Source of the DNA: Desulfuromonas sp. AOP6
GTDB lineage: Bacteria; Desulfobacterota; Desulfuromonadia; Desulfuromonadales; SZUA-540
Direction: 5' to 3'
Length of the DNA stretch: 64,000 nt
NCBI RefSeq assembly: GCF_009731355.2
Contig: NZ_AP022810.1
Location: 1,392,001-1,456,000, forward strand
In this document: positions 1 through 17,555 of the stretch, one piece after another
Position numbering within the stretch: position 1 is the stretch's first letter
Layout: each line of letters starts with the position of its first letter
Made by a program: the position numbers and the translations under genes
Notes under the pieces: generated by a model
What the model saw: only the letters and a program-made list of their open reading frames with translations
Databases searched by the model: none
Told to the model about the DNA's origin: nothing

Positions 1-897
1 TTCAAAAAGGTCGGTGATTATATTCTGGAAAGGAACCTGATCGACATTTCGAGTAAAAACACAATTCTGCTGGTTAACAGGCCTGATAGTTGGACCCGCT
101 CGCTGGTAGAAAGACGTTTTTCGGATGTAGCGATAAAAATTTTTGATTGGTCCGATGACTTTGAACAATTTACCGACGATGAAGCCACCCGAAAAACCAT
201 ACGCGATAATGTTCAATACCATATCTCCTCATCCGACATCGTCTTGTGTGTGAATGATAAATTGGGAGAGTTTGCGAAAAAGATCAATCCCAATTCCCAA
301 GTGGTGAAGAACGCGACGAATTATTTTACTTTCGAATGGGCGTACCCAGTTCGAGTTAGGGCGTTCAGGACCGGTCGACCTCTGATCGGCTATATGGGGT
401 GGATAAATGAATTACGCCTTGATGAGCAGTTGATCGAATATCTGGCGAAAAGTAGACCCGAATGGGATTTTGTTTTTGTCGGGCCCAAGAGCCATGAAGA
501 TGCCCTTGCTCGGTTATCTGCCCGTTGTCAGAACGTCCACTTGCGCGACCCGGTTCCCTATTCCAATATCCCATGGGTCCTGAGCCAGTTCGATGTCTGT
601 ATACTACCCAATCTGCTGAATAAGCACACTGCTGGAAATGACCCCATCAAGTACTTTGACTACCTCGCCAGTGGCAAGCCTATCGTTTCTACTGATACCG
701 CCGGCGCGGAGTATCTCGCTGGGTATATCGAAATAGCCCACGACAAACAACAGTTTCTAGACAAGATATCAGATTGCCTGAGTCACCCGAAAGAGGAACG
801 TGAGCGGGTCGCTTTCGGGCGGCTCAACTCCTGGTCGAATCGATTTAACGAGGTAAGAGAACTTATATACGAGGCATTGGCTAGAAATGAAAGATAA
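1..897 (+). CDS. Glycosyltransferase, 5'-truncated by the window edge
   Basis: The reading frame is open from base 1, so the gene begins left of the window. The visible 298 residues look like the C-terminal part of a GT-B glycosyltransferase of the TuaH/GT4-like kind: a stretch ending SSSDIVLCVN (the 'unmasked informant' region of these enzymes), a segment LIGYMGWINE opening the second Rossmann domain, and a nucleotide-sugar motif NDPIKYFDYLASGKPIVST near the end. It would transfer a sugar during exopolysaccharide assembly at the inner face of the membrane. The last 11 bases overlap the next glycosyltransferase, which implies translational coupling. Donor and acceptor sugars cannot be told. 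Confidence 0.8.
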   Translation, partial: FKKVGDYILERNLIDISSKNTILLVNRPDSWTRSLVERRFSDVAIKIFDWSDDFEQFTDDEATRKTIRDNVQYHISSSDIVLCVNDKLGEFAKKINPNSQVVKNATNYFTFEWAYPVRVRAFRTGRPLIGYMGWINELRLDEQLIEYLAKSRPEWDFVFVGPKSHEDALARLSARCQNVHLRDPVPYSNIPWVLSQFDVCILPNLLNKHTAGNDPIKYFDYLASGKPIVSTDTAGAEYLAGYIEIAHDKQQFLDKISDCLSHPKEERERVAFGRLNSWSNRFNEVRELIYEALARNER

Positions 898-9737: not shown

Positions 9738-10838
9738 GTGCTCAAATTATTTAAGGTATCTTTTTGGTCAGTCCTTATTTTGTTTTTAAGTCAAGCTGCT
9801 TTTGCAGCACCAACTGTTAATGCTGTAAATTCTGTCACCAATTCAAGTTTGGTAATTCAAGGTGCTGGTTTTGGAATCAAAGTTCCTGCCGAACCCCTTT
9901 TGTGGGAAAATTTTGAAAGGGGGGTAGACGGCAGTTTTTTAGCAACTGACCCGAAATGGAAAAATTATTCCATGAACGCTACTAACCCTAAATACTCTGC
10001 TGCAATGGTATATTCTGGTAATTTAGCAGGACATGGGAGAGCTTTTCCGAATTCGCCGGCGCCTGGAAATGAGGAGGATTGTTCAGCGTATTTCACTTTT
10101 GATGGCCAGGATGCCCTGTATGCCTCTTATTATTCATATGTTAAATTAGGTGGTCCTTTCCAGGGAACTGGAAAGTTTGCCCGTTTCAATTCGCAATCTG
10201 CGTACACCGGGGTACCTTCATTCATTACCCAAACCACCGCCGCTGCATACTCGTATCCTACAATCAACACTGGATCTGGTGGACCTACTTTTCACAATAT
10301 TGGGTTCAAAATGGCCCAAAATAAATGGAACCGTATGGAAATGTTCGAGTTTCTTTCCACCCCAGGGGGGGCAAAAAATGGCATTGTTGAATTGAACGAA
10401 AATAATGGGCCTAATTTAATACCGGCAAGTTTTGATGGTATAACCCGAGCTTCAGGAATTTCTAGTAAGTTAAATATATTTTTGTTGCCTCTTATGTGGG
10501 CAAATTTAACTGGTGAAAATTATGCCGATATGTATGTTGATGATGTATATATTGATATTACTCGTGCTCGTGTCGAAATTGGTAATGCTATCAATTGGCA
10601 TGACTGTACTACTAGAGAAGTACAAATTCCATCGGCATGGACTAATAATTCCATCACAGTTAGTTTAAACCTAGGCCGACTTAAAGAGGACGAAAAGAAG
10701 TTTTTATTTGTTGTCGACAGCAATGGTGATATGAATACTATAGGTTTTCCAGTCACAATTAATGGATCCGGCGAAGTAGACCCCATTACCCCTGGACTAG
10801 AGCCCGCCCAAAACCTAAGGGATGTGCCTGTCCAATAA
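9738..10838 (+). CDS. Secreted jelly-roll/IPT-like protein of unknown function
   Basis: A 366-residue protein with a Sec signal peptide (residues 1-23, cleavage after LSQAAFA). Residues 25-48 read like the opening strands of an IPT/TIG domain (LVIQGAGFG). Residues about 55-273 look like a ConA/jelly-roll beta sandwich with ALYASYYSYVKLG, KWNRMEMFEF and a closing YADMYVDDVYID. Residues 276-342 (REVQIPSAWTNNSITVSLN...) resemble the closing strands of an IPT domain. There is no PEP-CTERM tail, LPXTG or lipobox. The start is GTG at 9738 after AAGGAG. It stands alone between a sigma-54 promoter and a terminator, next to prsK. A polysaccharide-binding or lyase-like role is possible but not shown. 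Confidence 0.75.
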   Translation: MLKLFKVSFWSVLILFLSQAAFAAPTVNAVNSVTNSSLVIQGAGFGIKVPAEPLLWENFERGVDGSFLATDPKWKNYSMNATNPKYSAAMVYSGNLAGHGRAFPNSPAPGNEEDCSAYFTFDGQDALYASYYSYVKLGGPFQGTGKFARFNSQSAYTGVPSFITQTTAAAYSYPTINTGSGGPTFHNIGFKMAQNKWNRMEMFEFLSTPGGAKNGIVELNENNGPNLIPASFDGITRASGISSKLNIFLLPLMWANLTGENYADMYVDDVYIDITRARVEIGNAINWHDCTTREVQIPSAWTNNSITVSLNLGRLKEDEKKFLFVVDSNGDMNTIGFPVTINGSGEVDPITPGLEPAQNLRDVPVQ

Positions 10839-10967: not shown

Positions 10968-11201
10968 ACTGAAATCATATAAAAAACTAAATCAATACTC
11001 GTACTGCTCTTTGGGTTTTTGATATTCGTATGCAATTCCGACTACTTATAACTGTTGCATTTTTGTTACATCAATCCGGTGAATGGCGGCTTTCTGGATA
11101 AATTTTGTAGTGAAAACGCATGCCGAATTGACGGAAATTGTCGAAAAATAACATTTTTTTGATTCTTGTTCTTAGGCTATTTTAAGGATGGCCCCTTTTT
11201 T

Positions 11202-13244
11202 ATGGCATTGATCCTGTTGATGATTTCCGCTTGCGTGGCGGCATTCGTTCTTGCCTTGGTTTCAACCTTAATCCGCCGTCGCAGCGGCGGCCTTCTTCTT
11301 TTCATCTTAGTTCTTCTTTTTTCTATCTTTCTTGAGATCTTCGAGTTTAGTGCCTTATCATCACCAGCCAAATGGCCGCGTTGGAAGTATGCTGCCTTGT
11401 TGGTGGAATCCTTCTTGCCTGCATGCTGGCTTGGGTTTTGTCTGCTCTTTTACCGCGAAGGGTATAAGCGCTTGCCGCTTTGGCAGTGGCTGCTGTTTCT
11501 GCCGGCTGTGGGCTATCTGGCCGTCAATGCCTTCTCGCCAGTTGATCGTTTGTTCTTTTCTCCGGATTTTGTCGACGAAAATCTTCTTTTTGTCAGTTAC
11601 TACGGACTTTTCTTTTATATCACTCTGTCCCTGTATCTCACGCTTGCCCTGGTGAACCTGGAAAAAACCTTTTTCGCCTATCCACGCTATGAGCGGTGGC
11701 AGGTGAAGTTTGAATTTATCGGTATAGGCACCATTCTTGTGGCCAGTCTGCTCTATTACAGTCAGGCCCTCTTGTATCGCTCTCTTGACATGTCTTTAGT
11801 CCCACTTCGCACTGCAGGGCTTCTGATCGGTTGCCTCTTGATCCTTTTCTCGCAATTGAAGCGGGGAGGTGGGCATAGAATACGGTTGTCCCGGGATGTA
11901 ACCTACCGCTCCATGGTAGTCATTGCCATAGGTTTGTATTTCCTGGTTTTGGGGTTGCTTGGGGAGGGGATGCTTTACCTTGGTGGCGGCTCCCAGAAGC
12001 TTCTTTTTGTCCTGGTGGCCTTTTTACTGGGGATTGTTTTTATTGTTTTTCTGCTTTCGGAACATATTCGGCGAAAGGTCATGGTGCTTCTGCACAAGGC
12101 GTTTTTTGCCGAGAAGTACGACTACCGTATCCACTGGAAATCTCTGACCGATGAGTTGGGGCGGGTGCGGTCTGTCGAAGAAGTTAGATCGGTCATCCTG
12201 AAAACTTTTTGCGAGACCTTTGCCACGCAGGCGGGTGCTCTGTTCTGGCAGAAGCGTGAGGGCGGTGCTTTCGAGCTGGCGGGTGAGTATCATCTGCCCT
12301 GGCATCATGGGAACTTTGCGCCTGACAGCGCCCTGGTTGGATTGTTGCGTGATGACGAACGGATTCTGGATGTGGCATCTGACGACGCGGGTCATCTGCC
12401 TTTTTTAGAGGGGGAAGCCATAGCCTTTGTCGTTCCTTTGGTTTTTGAGCAGCGGCTAAAGGGAATGATTCTTCTTGGCCGCCGGATCAACTCAGGGGAG
12501 GCGATGACCTATGAAGATTATGATCTGATGAAGATGCTGGCTCGCCAGGCCGTGACGTCTTTGCTGAACTGGCACTTGGTTGAAGAGGTGGTCGCTCATA
12601 AGGAGATGGCGGCCATGGGAAAGGTAACTACCTTCGTCATGCATGATCTGAAAAATACCGTGTCCAACCTGGCCTTGGCTGTCGATAACGGCCGTCATTA
12701 TTTAAACGATCCTGCCTTTCAGCAGGATATGCTGGAAACCCTCGATAAGAGCGTTGAACGAATGAAGGGGCTGATCGACAGGCTGAAAAACCTGGAAGGG
12801 ACAAAGTCGCTTGCCACCGAGCGCGTTGATTTGCTGGAACTGGCCTTACGCCTTGTGCGGGAAATGTCTGTCAAGGGGGTCCGAGTGACGGGCAATCCTG
12901 CTTTTTGCCAGGCCGACCCGATAGAACTGGCCAAGGTTATTGAAAATCTTATTCTCAATGCTCTGGACGCCAGCAACGGTGAAGGGCCTGTTGATTTGGA
13001 GGTAGGTCAGGCTGGGATGGCCTATCTGCGCTGCCGCGATGACGGCTGCGGGATGTCCGAAGCTTTTGTAAGGGACCGCCTGTTCAAACCCTTCGAGACC
13101 ACCAAGAAAAAAGGGTTTGGCATCGGCCTTTATCAGAGCCGGAATATCGTGGAGGCCCATGGTGGTCGCATTGAGGTTGAAAGCCAGGAGGGCGGGGGGG
13201 CGACGTTCACTGTCTGGCTGCCTGGGTGTGACTTGGCAGAATAA
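11202..13244 (+). CDS. prsK: XrtA/PEP-CTERM system sensor histidine kinase PrsK
   Basis: About 680 residues. The N-terminal 290 residues form some eight membrane helices. A linker EHIRRKVMVLLHKAFF leads to a GAF-like domain (about residues 320-460), then a kinase core: phospho-acceptor His481 in VMHDLKN, the N box NLILNALDAS, the G1 box DDGCGM and the G2 box KGFGIGLYQSR. The HDLKN form of the H box and the multi-spanning N-terminus are typical of PrsK. I chose ATG 11202; a TTG at 11166 in the same frame would add 12 residues but has no ribosome-binding site. It should phosphorylate PrsR, encoded 30 bases downstream, and control exosortase-associated exopolysaccharide and protein genes. Confidence 0.92.
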   Translation: MALILLMISACVAAFVLALVSTLIRRRSGGLLLFILVLLFSIFLEIFEFSALSSPAKWPRWKYAALLVESFLPACWLGFCLLFYREGYKRLPLWQWLLFLPAVGYLAVNAFSPVDRLFFSPDFVDENLLFVSYYGLFFYITLSLYLTLALVNLEKTFFAYPRYERWQVKFEFIGIGTILVASLLYYSQALLYRSLDMSLVPLRTAGLLIGCLLILFSQLKRGGGHRIRLSRDVTYRSMVVIAIGLYFLVLGLLGEGMLYLGGGSQKLLFVLVAFLLGIVFIVFLLSEHIRRKVMVLLHKAFFAEKYDYRIHWKSLTDELGRVRSVEEVRSVILKTFCETFATQAGALFWQKREGGAFELAGEYHLPWHHGNFAPDSALVGLLRDDERILDVASDDAGHLPFLEGEAIAFVVPLVFEQRLKGMILLGRRINSGEAMTYEDYDLMKMLARQAVTSLLNWHLVEEVVAHKEMAAMGKVTTFVMHDLKNTVSNLALAVDNGRHYLNDPAFQQDMLETLDKSVERMKGLIDRLKNLEGTKSLATERVDLLELALRLVREMSVKGVRVTGNPAFCQADPIELAKVIENLILNALDASNGEGPVDLEVGQAGMAYLRCRDDGCGMSEAFVRDRLFKPFETTKKKGFGIGLYQSRNIVEAHGGRIEVESQEGGGATFTVWLPGCDLAE

Positions 13245-13274
13245 AGGCATGCCCGTTTTATGGTGAGGGGTTTT

Positions 13275-14654
13275 ATGGAAAAACTGCTGGTTATCGATGA
13301 CAACAGCGAAATTCTGAAGCAGTTGCGCTGGGGGCTGGGCAAGGACTACAAGGTTCTGTTCGCGGCGAATGGTCAGGAGGCCATGGAGCTGTTTGTCAAG
13401 AATGAGCCGAAGGTCGTGACCCTCGATCTGGGCCTGCCTCCTGATCCCGATGGCTCGGAGGAGGGGTTTCGCTGTCTTTCCCGGATGCTGCAACAGGCGC
13501 CGGCGACCAAGGTCATCGTTATTACCGGACGGGGCGAACAGAAGGTGGCCCTTAAGGCTATCCAACTGGGCGCTTATGATTTTTATCACAAACCCATCGA
13601 CCTGAACGAGCTGAAGGTCATCCTTTCGCGGGCCTTTCATCTGGCGGCGCTGGAGGCTGAGAATCGGCAGCTGCAGTCAGCGCTGGTGGCCGAGCAGAAT
13701 ACTCAGGGCATTTTCGGTCAATGCCCGCCCATGCAGGAGGTTTTCACCACCATCCGTAAGGTGGCGACCACCAATGTCTCGGTGCTGGTGCTGGGAGAGA
13801 GCGGTACGGGCAAGGAGCTGGTGGCTAGAGCCATCCATGGCGAAAGCCTGCGCGCCAAGGCTCCCTTTATCCCCATCAACTGCGGGGCTATCCCCGAGAA
13901 CCTGCTGGAGTCGGAACTGTTCGGGCATGAAAAGGGCGCTTTTACCGGAGCGCAGAACCGGGTGCACGGCAAGGTGGAATATGCTCACAACGGCACGCTC
14001 TTTCTTGATGAAATCGGTGAGCTGTCGGCGCCTTTGCAGGTCAAGTTGCTGCGTTTTCTGCAGGATGGGGTTATGCAGCGGGTCGGCGGCCGCGAGGATA
14101 TTGCCGTCGATGTGCGGGTGATTGCCGCGACCAACGTGGATATCGAGAAGGCCATCGCCTCAGGTGCTTTCCGTGAGGATCTCTACTACCGCCTTGGGGT
14201 TATCAGTATTGTGCTGCCGCCGCTGCGCGAGCGGGGAGACGATGTCCTGCTGCTGGCCAATCTTTTTCTCCATCGCTACAGCGACAGTTTCAAGAAAAAG
14301 GTGAGGGGATTCAGCGTGGCGGCCATGAATCAGCTGCAAAGCTATGCCTGGCCGGGGAACGTGCGGGAGCTGGAGAACAAGGTGAAGCGCGCCATTATCA
14401 TGAGCGATGGCCCCCTGATCACTCCGGTGGATTTAGGTTTTGAAAGCTCTGCGGCCAATCTGGAACCGGAAGCAAAAACGGTTGGCATGTCTTTGAAGGA
14501 TGCCAAAGACAAGGTTGAGCGGCAGATGGTGCTGGCGGCTATTGAACAGGAGCAGGGCAATGTAGCCAAGGCGGCTGAAACCTTAGGTATCAGCCGCCCG
14601 ACGATCTATGATCTGATGAAAAAGCATGGACTGCATGTCAGCACCGAGGGCTGA
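13275..14654 (+). CDS. prsR: PEP-CTERM-box response regulator PrsR (sigma-54 activator)
   Basis: 459 residues from ATG 13275, which has GTGAGGGG upstream; an in-frame ATG at 13260 is less likely. Receiver domain: acidic pair Asp8/Asp9 and phospho-acceptor Asp51 in LDLGLP. AAA+ domain: Walker A GESGTGKELVA, the sigma-54 contact loop GAFTGA, Walker B GTLFLDEIGEL, and arginine finger region YYRLGV. A Fis-type helix-turn-helix ends the protein (AAETLGISRPTIYDLMKKHG). It activates RpoN-dependent promoters when phosphorylated by PrsK. The gene converges on the fibronectin-III gene with only eight bases between the stop codons. Confidence 0.93.
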   Translation: MEKLLVIDDNSEILKQLRWGLGKDYKVLFAANGQEAMELFVKNEPKVVTLDLGLPPDPDGSEEGFRCLSRMLQQAPATKVIVITGRGEQKVALKAIQLGAYDFYHKPIDLNELKVILSRAFHLAALEAENRQLQSALVAEQNTQGIFGQCPPMQEVFTTIRKVATTNVSVLVLGESGTGKELVARAIHGESLRAKAPFIPINCGAIPENLLESELFGHEKGAFTGAQNRVHGKVEYAHNGTLFLDEIGELSAPLQVKLLRFLQDGVMQRVGGREDIAVDVRVIAATNVDIEKAIASGAFREDLYYRLGVISIVLPPLRERGDDVLLLANLFLHRYSDSFKKKVRGFSVAAMNQLQSYAWPGNVRELENKVKRAIIMSDGPLITPVDLGFESSAANLEPEAKTVGMSLKDAKDKVERQMVLAAIEQEQGNVAKAAETLGISRPTIYDLMKKHGLHVSTEG

Positions 14655-14662
14655 CTTCGGTC

Positions 14663-15535
14663 TTACGAGTTGGTCGTTGTAAAGCTGTAGGTCGAGCTTT
14701 CGGTGACGGTTACGCCATCGTCGGCGACGACTTTCCAGTAATAGGTAGTATTGGGGTCGAAATCGAAGATCTCGAAAGTGCTTTCCACCAGATTATCCAC
14801 CACATCCGTGTATTGAGGCGCAACAGACGACGGTTGATCGATATTCACCGAACCGCTGATCGCGTCATCTCCACCACCACCGCCACCGCAGCTGGCCAAC
14901 AGCATGGTGGCGCCCACCAGGGCGGGAATCACCGCTTTTCTCATTTTACGACGCTGGGGAATGGCCAGACTGAGCAACGACAGGGCGGCGATCGCCAGCA
15001 GAACTTCCTTGTTCGGATAGAGTGGTTCGAAATTTATGCTGCCCACTGCGCCTGACTGGAGGGTCGGGTCGGTGCCGTAGTAGAGGGTGTAAACGACGTT
15101 ACGGCCGTCAGAGGGGTCGCTCCAGTTGAATTGCACCGTTCTGGGGATTTCGCTGGCCTGATTGGCCGGATATTGCAGGGAGGGAATGAAGGGATTGGGA
15201 TCCCCGGCACTCCAGGCAATAACGTTGGAGAAAGGGCTTTCATTGCCGGCGGCATCGTAGGCCACCACCGTAAAGTAGTAAACGACGCCGGCATCGAGGC
15301 CGCTCAGGCTCGTCGTCAGGGTATCCCCGACAATAACGGGAGAATTCCCTTCAATGGCGCCGGTGCCGTTGAGGGGAGCGACGGAAGAGCCCGCTTTGTA
15401 ATACATCTTGTAGCCGACGACTCCTGCGGAGGGACTTGGATCCCAGGCCAGGGTGACGTCAGCGGCAAAGGAGAGGGTGGCGGTGAAAAGGCACAGCAGT
15501 AGGGTGGACAAAGAGAGGACGTGTTTCGTTTTCAT
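14663..15535 (-). CDS. Secreted fibronectin type III protein with internal membrane hairpin and lipobox
   Basis: 290 residues from the ATG at 15535, preceded by CGGAG. Signal peptide 1-24 (TLSFA). First FN3 domain about 26-110 (VTLAWDPSPS...VVYYFTVVAYDAAGNESPFSN). A second FN3 domain starts at about 134 (VQFNWSDPSDG...YTLYYGTDPTL) but is broken after residue 161 by an insert: hydrophobic 178-192, basic PQRRKMRK 193-200, hydrophobic 201-215 ending in a lipobox-like LLASC (Cys216), then six glycines. FN3 strands resume at 240-288 (NTTYYWKVVADDG...YSFTT). The insert looks like an exosortase-style tail joined to a lipoprotein signal. Its neighbours are prsR and a CPBP protease. Function unknown; surface or outer-membrane location is likely. 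Confidence 0.8.
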   Translation of the reverse strand: MKTKHVLSLSTLLLCLFTATLSFAADVTLAWDPSPSAGVVGYKMYYKAGSSVAPLNGTGAIEGNSPVIVGDTLTTSLSGLDAGVVYYFTVVAYDAAGNESPFSNVIAWSAGDPNPFIPSLQYPANQASEIPRTVQFNWSDPSDGRNVVYTLYYGTDPTLQSGAVGSINFEPLYPNKEVLLAIAALSLLSLAIPQRRKMRKAVIPALVGATMLLASCGGGGGGDDAISGSVNIDQPSSVAPQYTDVVDNLVESTFEIFDFDPNTTYYWKVVADDGVTVTESSTYSFTTTNS

Positions 15536-16015: not shown

Positions 16016-16702
16016 CTACCAGAAGCGCCATTGCCCGGTTTGCAAAACGTAGAGGCCCAGGGCGAGGTTGGCCACGGCATGGGCCAGTATGCACTGGGCG
16101 ATGCTGCGGGTTTGGTAGAGGAGCAGGTTGAAAAGGGCCCCGGCGACGATGCCGGCGACGATGTAGTGATGTTCAAGACCGAAAAGGACGCTGGCGACCA
16201 GGAAGGAGAACCAGCTGAAGGTGCCGATGGCGACGGTGGTGAATTGACTTTTGATGAGATACCGGAGTAAAAAGGAGCGCCAAAAAAGCTCTTCCATGAT
16301 AGGTACCACGACGACGGCGCCCGCCAGGCGGCAGGCAATAAAGGCGTAGCGGTTGGCCTCCTCGGAGATGGTTTGCGGATCGAACCCTGCCGATTCCCCC
16401 TGAGAGAGGAGACTCCAGTCAAGGTGGATCCACAGCGCGAAGATCAGCAGGCCGATGAGGATGCTGAGTGCGCTGGTTTTTATCTGCAGCCACTGGCGGA
16501 TGTCTATCTCAGAATAGAATTTGCGGTAGAAAATCAGTATGGCCGCGACGGAAAAGATTTTAAGGGCATAGAGGGGGTAAAGGATCTTTGTGTCGAGCAG
16601 GATGAGCTGCTGGCCGTGCAGATGGCGCATCAACTCTTCTATCCCCACAAAGGCCATGAATACGGTAAAGGGGAGAACTCGGGACCAGAAATTCTGATTC
16701 AA
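16016..16702 (-). CDS. CPBP family intramembrane glutamic protease, exosortase-associated type
   Basis: About 228 residues with seven or eight hydrophobic segments. The family motifs are present: EELFWRSFLLRY (EExxxR), FGLEHHYIVAG (FxxxH) and HAVANLAL (HxxxN), which together form the membrane-embedded active site. The layout resembles the 'CAAX prenyl protease-related' proteins of XrtA loci (TIGR03008). The start is placed at TTG 16702 (MNQNFWSRVLPF); a longer frame would run into the oppositely oriented trmJ gene and has no hydrophobic content. It is transcribed toward the FN3 gene, 480 bases away. Substrate unknown; processing of surface proteins is plausible. Confidence 0.82.
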   Translation of the reverse strand: MNQNFWSRVLPFTVFMAFVGIEELMRHLHGQQLILLDTKILYPLYALKIFSVAAILIFYRKFYSEIDIRQWLQIKTSALSILIGLLIFALWIHLDWSLLSQGESAGFDPQTISEEANRYAFIACRLAGAVVVVPIMEELFWRSFLLRYLIKSQFTTVAIGTFSWFSFLVASVLFGLEHHYIVAGIVAGALFNLLLYQTRSIAQCILAHAVANLALGLYVLQTGQWRFW

Positions 16703-16811
16703 GGCGATTTCCGTCTTAAGGGGTGACTCACGGTAACAACGATTGCTCTCCTTCCTGCCGTTCCATTGTAAAAGGCTTTGTTGGAAAATCCAGTTGGGAA
16801 TGAATCTATCT

Positions 16812-17555
16812 ATGAATCTTGATAACGTGGCGGTGGTCCTGGTCGAACCCCAGGGTGCCCTTAATATCGGCTCGGTATGTCGGGCCATGATGAATTTTGG
16901 TTTTTCGGACCTGCGGCTGGTTAACCCCCAGGTCGATCATCTGGGGGAAGAGGCCCGCCGCATGGCAGTCAAGGCCGGCGTCTTGCTCGATGCGGCCAGG
17001 ATTTTCGGCAGCCTTGAAGAGGCGCTGGCCGATTGTCACTTTGCTTTGGGGACAACGCGGCGGTTCGGCAAGTACCGCGAGGATTTTCTGCATCCCGATG
17101 AAGCGGCCGATCAGTTTCTGCCTCTGGCGGAGAGGGGGCGGGTCGCCCTGCTTTTCGGCCGGGAGGACAAGGGCCTGCTGACCAATGAGCTGGATCTGTG
17201 TCAGCGCTTCATCACCATACCCACGCATGACGCCTTGCCGTCCATGAATCTGGCCCAGGCTGTTTCCCTGTGTCTCTATGAAACCTCCCGGGCTCTCGGC
17301 CGAGCGCAGGGTAAGGTGGCCGGCCGCAAGAAGCTGGCCTCATCCAAGGTTCTGGAAGGCATGTATGCCCATCTTCGTCGCACGCTTCTCGATATCGGGT
17401 TTCTCGATCCCCAGAACCCGGACCATATCCTGCGCTCTTTCCGGCGGATTTTCGGGCGCGCCGGCCTCAACGATAGAGAGGTGCGTATTCTGCACGGCAT
17501 GTGTCGAAGTATTGACTGGGTGGAAGAAGACCGCAGGAAGAAGGGGGACAAATGA
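16812..17555 (+). CDS. trmJ: TrmJ/TrmH-family tRNA or rRNA 2'-O-methyltransferase
   Basis: About 247 residues of the SPOUT class (RNA methyltransferase, TrmH family group 1). N-terminal VVLVEPQGALNIGSVCRAM, then LLFGREDKGL and MNLAQAVSLCLYE give the three conserved SPOUT motifs that build the knotted SAM site. It should methylate a ribose 2'-OH, in E. coli TrmJ at position 32 of tRNAs. ATG 16800 is also possible; I prefer 16812 because GGGA precedes it at a workable distance and the family begins close to this point. It overlaps the next gene by ATGA. Confidence 0.85.
   Translation: MNLDNVAVVLVEPQGALNIGSVCRAMMNFGFSDLRLVNPQVDHLGEEARRMAVKAGVLLDAARIFGSLEEALADCHFALGTTRRFGKYREDFLHPDEAADQFLPLAERGRVALLFGREDKGLLTNELDLCQRFITIPTHDALPSMNLAQAVSLCLYETSRALGRAQGKVAGRKKLASSKVLEGMYAHLRRTLLDIGFLDPQNPDHILRSFRRIFGRAGLNDREVRILHGMCRSIDWVEEDRRKKGDK

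Follow-up and report, generated by a model that had tools for sequence, protein, structure and literature searches.

Desulfuromonas sp. AOP6 encodes a secreted protein of 290 residues in which a membrane hairpin followed by a lipobox sits in the middle of the second fibronectin type III domain (FN3-2). The insert probably acts as an internal lipoprotein signal that is portable and, here, embedded in the FN3 domain; it would give two paired chains with the lipid on the C-terminal one. The window, i.e., the whole stretch of DNA analysed, is 64,000 nucleotides long (contig NZ_AP022810.1, positions 1,392,001 to 1,456,000); its relevant features are collected in Table 1, and the loci retrieved from this and other genomes are designated by L numbers.

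Table 1. Features of the window around the gene of the 290-residue protein (window coordinates; residue numbers refer to that protein).
Feature	Position	Strand	Basis
PrsK (TIGR02916)	11166..13244	+	equivalog, 9.2e-148
PrsR (TIGR02915), tail to tail with the 290-residue protein gene	13260..14654	+	equivalog, 3.7e-199
Gene of the 290-residue secreted protein, stop codon included	14663..15535	-	open frame and translation; same-genus orthologue 94% identical
FN3-2 second half, strands E-G, residues 243-287	14675..14809	-	PF16656 match 247-287; model strands; invariant residues
Gly6 spacer, residues 217-222	14870..14887	-	differs among relatives (e.g., SDD, READN, GDVND)
Lipobox LASC, residues 213-216	14888..14899	-	predicted LspA cut before Cys216, predicted lipid on Cys216
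TM2, putative hydrophobic core of the internal lipoprotein signal, residues 201-215	14891..14935	-	model helix 196-214; alignment
Basic loop RRKMRK, residues 195-200, contains Met198	14936..14953	-	net charge of the loop between +1 and +6 in 68/68 units
TM1, residues 176-192	14960..15010	-	model helix 176-191; hydropathy of units
FN3-2 first half, strands A-C, residues 116-160	15056..15190	-	model strands 133-138 and 148-154; 116..288 aligned as one FN3
FN3-1, residues 26-110	15206..15460	-	Pfam fn3, 1.2e-10; model and structure alignments
N-terminal Sec signal peptide, residues 1-25	15461..15535	-	sequence and alignment of 26 family members
CPBP-type intramembrane protease, XrtA/PEP-CTERM set (TIGR03008), upstream of the gene	16016-16888	-	5.6e-79

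One predicted FN3 domain in two halves

An earlier note, made from the DNA sequence alone, had described a secreted 290-residue protein with a split second FN3 domain, and this description is correct, including the residue numbers of the insert. The frame runs from 15535 to 14663 on the minus strand, the plus strand of this segment being interrupted by stop codons. According to the AxA rule, the signal peptide would be cleaved after Ala24 or Ala25. The Pfam fn3 match covers residues 26-106, and the last strands of FN3-2 are matched by PF16656. About 80 residues, located between the C and E strands, part the two halves of FN3-2: they comprise TM1, the RRKMRK loop, TM2, LASC216, the six glycines and a linker. 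The hydrophobic stretches themselves span residues 178-192 and 201-215, and the loop between them is probably cytoplasmic, based on the positive-inside rule. LASC216 fits the lipobox pattern [LVI..]-x-[GAS]-C, following a basic n-region and a hydrophobic core. This signal occupies residues 195-216 of 290, so it does not lie at the N-terminus of the precursor.

The fold prediction that the note had called for agrees with a single domain made of both halves. The AlphaFold2 model of the protein was obtained from 11 alignment rows and has intermediate confidence (mean pLDDT 65.7, pTM 0.38): the ten-residue pLDDT means are 68-78 for residues 131-160 and 69-81 for residues 241-290, and fall below 50 for residues 114-130. 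A Foldseek search with the whole model returned mostly two-domain FN3 chains with a poor whole-chain rmsd, hence the use of per-domain alignments. Residues 116..288 of the model align as one FN3 domain with positions 3 to 93 of 8f0m_B, a monobody chain of 91 residues (Z 9.5, rmsd 2.2, 87 residues aligned), an alignment over the whole chain that requires both halves of FN3-2. A second AlphaFold2 model, that of a unit from Nitrospirota (13 rows, mean pLDDT 71.8, ten-residue means of 67-94 for residues 1-60 and 73-96 for residues 141-183), aligns from 2 to 183 with the single FN3-like domain 9kvu (Z 11.2, rmsd 2.1, 92 of 94 residues). In both predicted models, one FN3 sandwich is formed jointly by the halves on the two sides of the insert.

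Conservation and spread of the unit

A search of 98 genomes, including that of strain AOP6, gave 26 short-family proteins that could be aligned (the window protein and 25 others; one of them, L027, is partial, and another, L014, has an in-frame TAG near its end). L026, L028 and L029, which consist of FN3-1 alone or are fragments, were left out. The succession TM-basic-TM-Cys is found at the same position in all 26 members. Mean identity, calculated over 21 members, is 50% in FN3-1, 41% and 44% in the two halves of FN3-2, and 61% in the lipobox and glycines, compared to 18% in the helices and 23% in the signal peptide. The insert thus evolves like a signal peptide, with a free core and a fixed cleavage site. 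Residues Y265, W267, S280 and F285 are invariant in the 21 proteins. Pro171, ahead of TM1, is almost always conserved among short-family members, which counts against reading the insert as a lipoprotein signal. Two genomes encode a paralogue (L161, L162) whose FN3-2 is the same except that a hydrophilic linker replaces the cassette. Absence or free variation of the insert in homologues had been put forward as grounds for doubting it; the two insert-less paralogues and the divergent helices go in that direction, but the lipobox and the layout hardly vary.

The C-terminal unit was then compared over 68 distinct sequences, from loci up to L160, each chosen for spanning the profile model; the Cys of a unit was taken as the last one after a hydrophobic stretch. 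Outside this set are the units that do not span the model and all those from L161-L180; the sequences left outside include the insert-less L161 and L162, the broken L090 and L180, and L169, L175 and L179, where the Cys is retained. The lipobox Cys is present in 68/68 units, a count that, like the other 68/68 counts, describes the family and is no blind test, since the profile was made from 44 like sequences. The Cys is preceded by Ser (31 units), Ala (28) or Gly (9), Leu occupies position -3 in 42 of the 68, and none has Asp directly after the Cys. The best 15-residue hydropathy of TM1 is at least 1.5 in every unit, and that of the stretch after the Cys is at most 1.31. The Gly run is not essential, as it is missing from L122, L131, L135 and L169, all of which retain the Cys. 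One comparison goes against the lipoprotein-signal reading. In a noisy set of 29 N-terminal Cys-Gly/Ser frames from the same loci, position -1 is Ala or Gly in 22 cases and never Ser (0/29), compared to Ser in 31/68 units.

The unit is not restricted to the short family. A profile built from 22 units gave 75 matches (two of them partial) in 51 of the 98 genomes of the order. Across the phylum, at least 8 of 297 sampled genomes have the unit, 5 of them from the same order, when up to the 12 best candidates per genome are scored, and at least six loci from Nitrospirota are found among the 80 matches listed. The unit ends subtilases (an S8 domain was found in 10/10 further hosts scanned and in L061, from the AOP6 genome itself), a YVTN beta-propeller protein (L064) and a 564-residue frame whose N-terminal region has no assigned domain (L179).

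Two side observations concern damaged copies. In L180:1192-3175 (-), the frame of a unit protein is broken in the G run of the Gly tract, directly after the lipobox Cys; phase variation and assembly error cannot be told apart here. L090:1264-2048 (+), on a contig titled Shewanella sp. MAG, has the family split over two overlapping frames, possibly by a binning or sequence error, and is the only unit match with a title other than Desulfuromonadales-like or Nitrospirota among the matches listed.

The layout itself (internal TM, basic loop, TM and lipobox) was scanned for in 1113 distinct frames of at least 200 residues from L001-L180, with thresholds set after the family had been seen. Of the 77 matches, 73 are among the 78 unit-bearing frames; the remaining four, out of 1035 other frames, represent one subtilase type from another genus. 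The five unit frames that were missed include the insert-less L161 and L162 and the broken L180. In the subtilase L172 (about 1087 residues), the succession TM-basic-TM-LMAACGSGG separates the I9 propeptide from the S8 domain, so that an internal lipobox also occurs in a fold other than FN3; a cut at this site would detach the inhibitor from the enzyme and lipidate the enzyme. Similar frames are found in two more genomes of its genus (L173, L174), the domains having been tested in L172.

At the DNA level, the AOP6 genome contains 20 CysGly-run sites compared to 22 for a reversed control pattern, which means that the pattern itself is not enriched. Six of the 20 sites have a hydrophobic stretch before the Cys: three belong to N-terminal lipoproteins, one is unrelated by eye, and two are the internal cassettes of the window protein and of a subtilase.

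One alternative is that the hairpin is a mere membrane anchor, with FN3-2 held to the inner membrane by the two TM helices and no use made of the lipobox. TM1 and the basic loop match the lipobox in the constancy of their layout, as this explanation would have it. A plain hairpin, however, needs no Cys with Ser, Ala or Gly before it, as observed in every one of the 68 units, and the Cys-Gly run is shared with three ordinary N-terminal lipoproteins of the genome (L181, L184, L197). We consider this alternative unlikely.

Sorting enzymes and known systems

The gene adjoins prsR and prsK and lies downstream of the TIGR03008 protease gene. The earlier note had compared the first half of the insert to the tail of an XrtA-type C-terminal sorting signal, and one may imagine that TM1 and the basic loop form a mid-protein sorting signal, cut by an exosortase, a rhombosortase or the CPBP protease, and that the lipobox is used by the C-terminal part once it is released. 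The existence of an NCBIfam family named 'midcut-by-XrtH' indicates that cuts in the middle of proteins have already been proposed. Moreover, an exosortase is present in 30 of the 51 genomes that have the unit compared to 11 of the 47 others (Fisher p 0.0005, phylogeny ignored), and in 17 of the 26 short-family genomes compared to 24 of the 72 others (p 0.006, phylogeny ignored), a co-occurrence that may be due to shared ancestry and linkage but that counts against the lipoprotein-signal reading.

Against this, the protein has no PEP motif and neither an exosortase nor a rhombosortase scores over the cut-off in 18/51 unit genomes. The same is true of 9/26 short-family genomes, where no PF09721 match was found either; eight of these nine are listed as 96-100% complete, and most are drafts. 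No link appears between the unit and rhombosortase (10/51 unit genomes vs 10/47 others; TIGR03902 gives none over the cut-off in the AOP6 genome) or TIGR03008 (22/51 vs 20/47 genomes of the order), and within the retrieved flanks TIGR03008 stands beside the gene only in its own genus (L001, L002 and, with a fragment, L026). Genome co-occurrence thus does not support XrtA, rhombosortase or TIGR03008 as a required enzyme, despite the enrichment in exosortase. The comparison with an XrtA-type signal is not supported, and a mid-protein sorting signal seems quite improbable.

A PrsR homologue is found inside the retrieved flank of 20/26 short-family loci, including seven whose genomes have no PF09721 match; this proximity, too, counts against the lipoprotein-signal reading. 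In these seven (L009, L010, L011, L016, L018, L020, L022), PrsR adjoins the short protein, and the prsKR locus is apparently without XrtA. No sigma-54 box that PrsR could target was seen upstream of the window gene; among 25 other upstream stretches, seven had a weak best site, and comparison with shuffles made none of these rarer than 8%. Elsewhere in the window, 9738-10838 (+) encodes a secreted protein of 366 residues with no NCBIfam match at E 1e-10; in L005 and L082, apparently one and the same contig, a distant relative (4e-29) is adjacent to the short protein.

One of the closest catalogued families is NF058595 invert_tail ('lipo-invert putative C-terminal anchoring domain', NCBIfam). 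Its model positions 33-78 fall on residues 179-222, from TM1 to Gly6, but the window protein scores 21.6 bits, under the cut-off of 37. Seven of ten further proteins also match (21.9 to 32.4 bits, all under the cut-off), and no match was obtained with the insert-less L161 and L162, nor with the unit-bearing L122. These matches below the cut-off are unspecific, since 5/14 control genomes match at E 0.001. Over the cut-off, the family is found in 1/98 genomes of the order, and that match (L031) is a plain N-terminal lipoprotein; at E 1e-9, 0/297 genomes of the phylum are over it, and the controls are equally blank, so this is no proof of absence. The name suggests anchoring by a lipid at the C-terminal side and does not mention a split FN3. 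The NCBIfam curators seem to have noticed something of this layout, and the window protein would function in the way that this name implies. No paper on 'lipo-invert' or 'internal lipobox', nor on an internal signal peptide and LspA in lipoproteins, was found in the literature searched.

The insert shares a basic n-region, a hydrophobic core, a lipobox and a Cys-Gly run with ordinary lipoproteins processed by Lgt, LspA and Lnt; it differs from them in that the signal is internal, comes after a stop-transfer helix and lies within a domain. TM1 and the basic cluster resemble the tail of PEP-CTERM/XrtA and GlyGly-CTERM/rhombosortase signals, but TM1 is internal, not C-terminal, no PEP motif is present, and the unit also occurs in genomes where neither enzyme scores over the cut-off. 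MYXO-CTERM signals, associated with myxosortase, combine an invariant Cys, a TM helix and a basic cluster, and their lipidation has been proposed (PMC11980579). There, the order is Cys-TM-basic, at the C-terminus and with no defined lipobox in the text consulted; here, it is an internal TM-basic-TM-Cys with a lipobox, so the protein does not belong to that class. An FN3 domain can reportedly also reassemble from two fragments (Dutta et al. 2005), whereas here the cell itself would make the cut and one piece would bear a lipid. As far as our searches go, what is new is an anchor embedded in a split FN3 domain, its portability as a unit, and natural versions that lack the insert.

The last alternative, an artefact or fusion in which a lipoprotein gene was joined to an FN3 gene by a frameshift, or in which the second half starts at its own Met198, is very improbable and largely refuted: a good lipoprotein signal does follow Met198 and broken forms exist (L090, L180), but the layout is common to all 26 aligned short-family members, the unit is widespread in the order, the 48 codons of the cassette show five synonymous and no non-synonymous differences from the same-genus orthologue (small numbers), a Met is found in the loop of 16/68 units only, and no Shine-Dalgarno-like sequence or other ribosome site was seen ahead of Met198. 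The internal lipobox described earlier is supported, but not a start of its own at Met198.

A possible lipid tether on the C-terminal side

In the preferred reading, that of an internal lipoprotein signal, the protein would leave the cytoplasm via Sec, using its N-terminal signal peptide. TM1 would then halt the transfer, the basic loop would remain inside, and TM2 would act as a second signal, of the lipoprotein type, that re-exports the rest of the chain, as hydropathy and charge suggest. The lipobox points to the usual sequence of events at Cys216: Lgt would add diacylglycerol, LspA would cut before the Cys, and Lnt would acylate the new N-terminus. The products would be, on the one hand, FN3-1 and strands A-C with the hairpin and, on the other hand, a 75-residue chain bearing the lipid and strands E-G. 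The two halves would end up on one face of the membrane and, after cleavage, associate into a single FN3 domain, so that an N-terminal cargo or enzyme would be held by a lipid on its C-terminal side. Fragment complementation of a fibronectin FN3 domain has reportedly been obtained in the laboratory.

The hairpin left in the inner membrane would not fit well with sorting to the outer membrane, which the Gly after the Cys suggests, and a further cut of TM1 may thus be needed. The leftover hairpin on the N-terminal chain may be removed by a rhomboid or another protease. The earlier suggestion that cleavage and lipidation split or anchor the protein is consistent with the layout and the lipobox; the earlier interpretation as a whole is partly supported. 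We only tentatively propose the more specific mechanism, in which LspA would cleave the C-E loop and the cargo or enzyme would be held non-covalently by the lipidated half of the sandwich, serving as a portable and possibly releasable tether.

The lipid of bacterial lipoproteins sits at the N-terminus, and a lipid on the C-terminal side is beyond the reach of an ordinary N-terminal lipoprotein signal. Judging from the sequences, the hairpin with its lipobox looks like a real and portable way of tethering proteins to the membrane by a lipid. If the proposal is true, the ordinary lipoprotein machinery would be used in the middle of a protein, with a re-formed beta-sandwich bearing the load; enzymes would need no dedicated sortase to be anchored on their C-terminal side, and the family would provide a natural example of a two-chain domain created by signal peptidase II.
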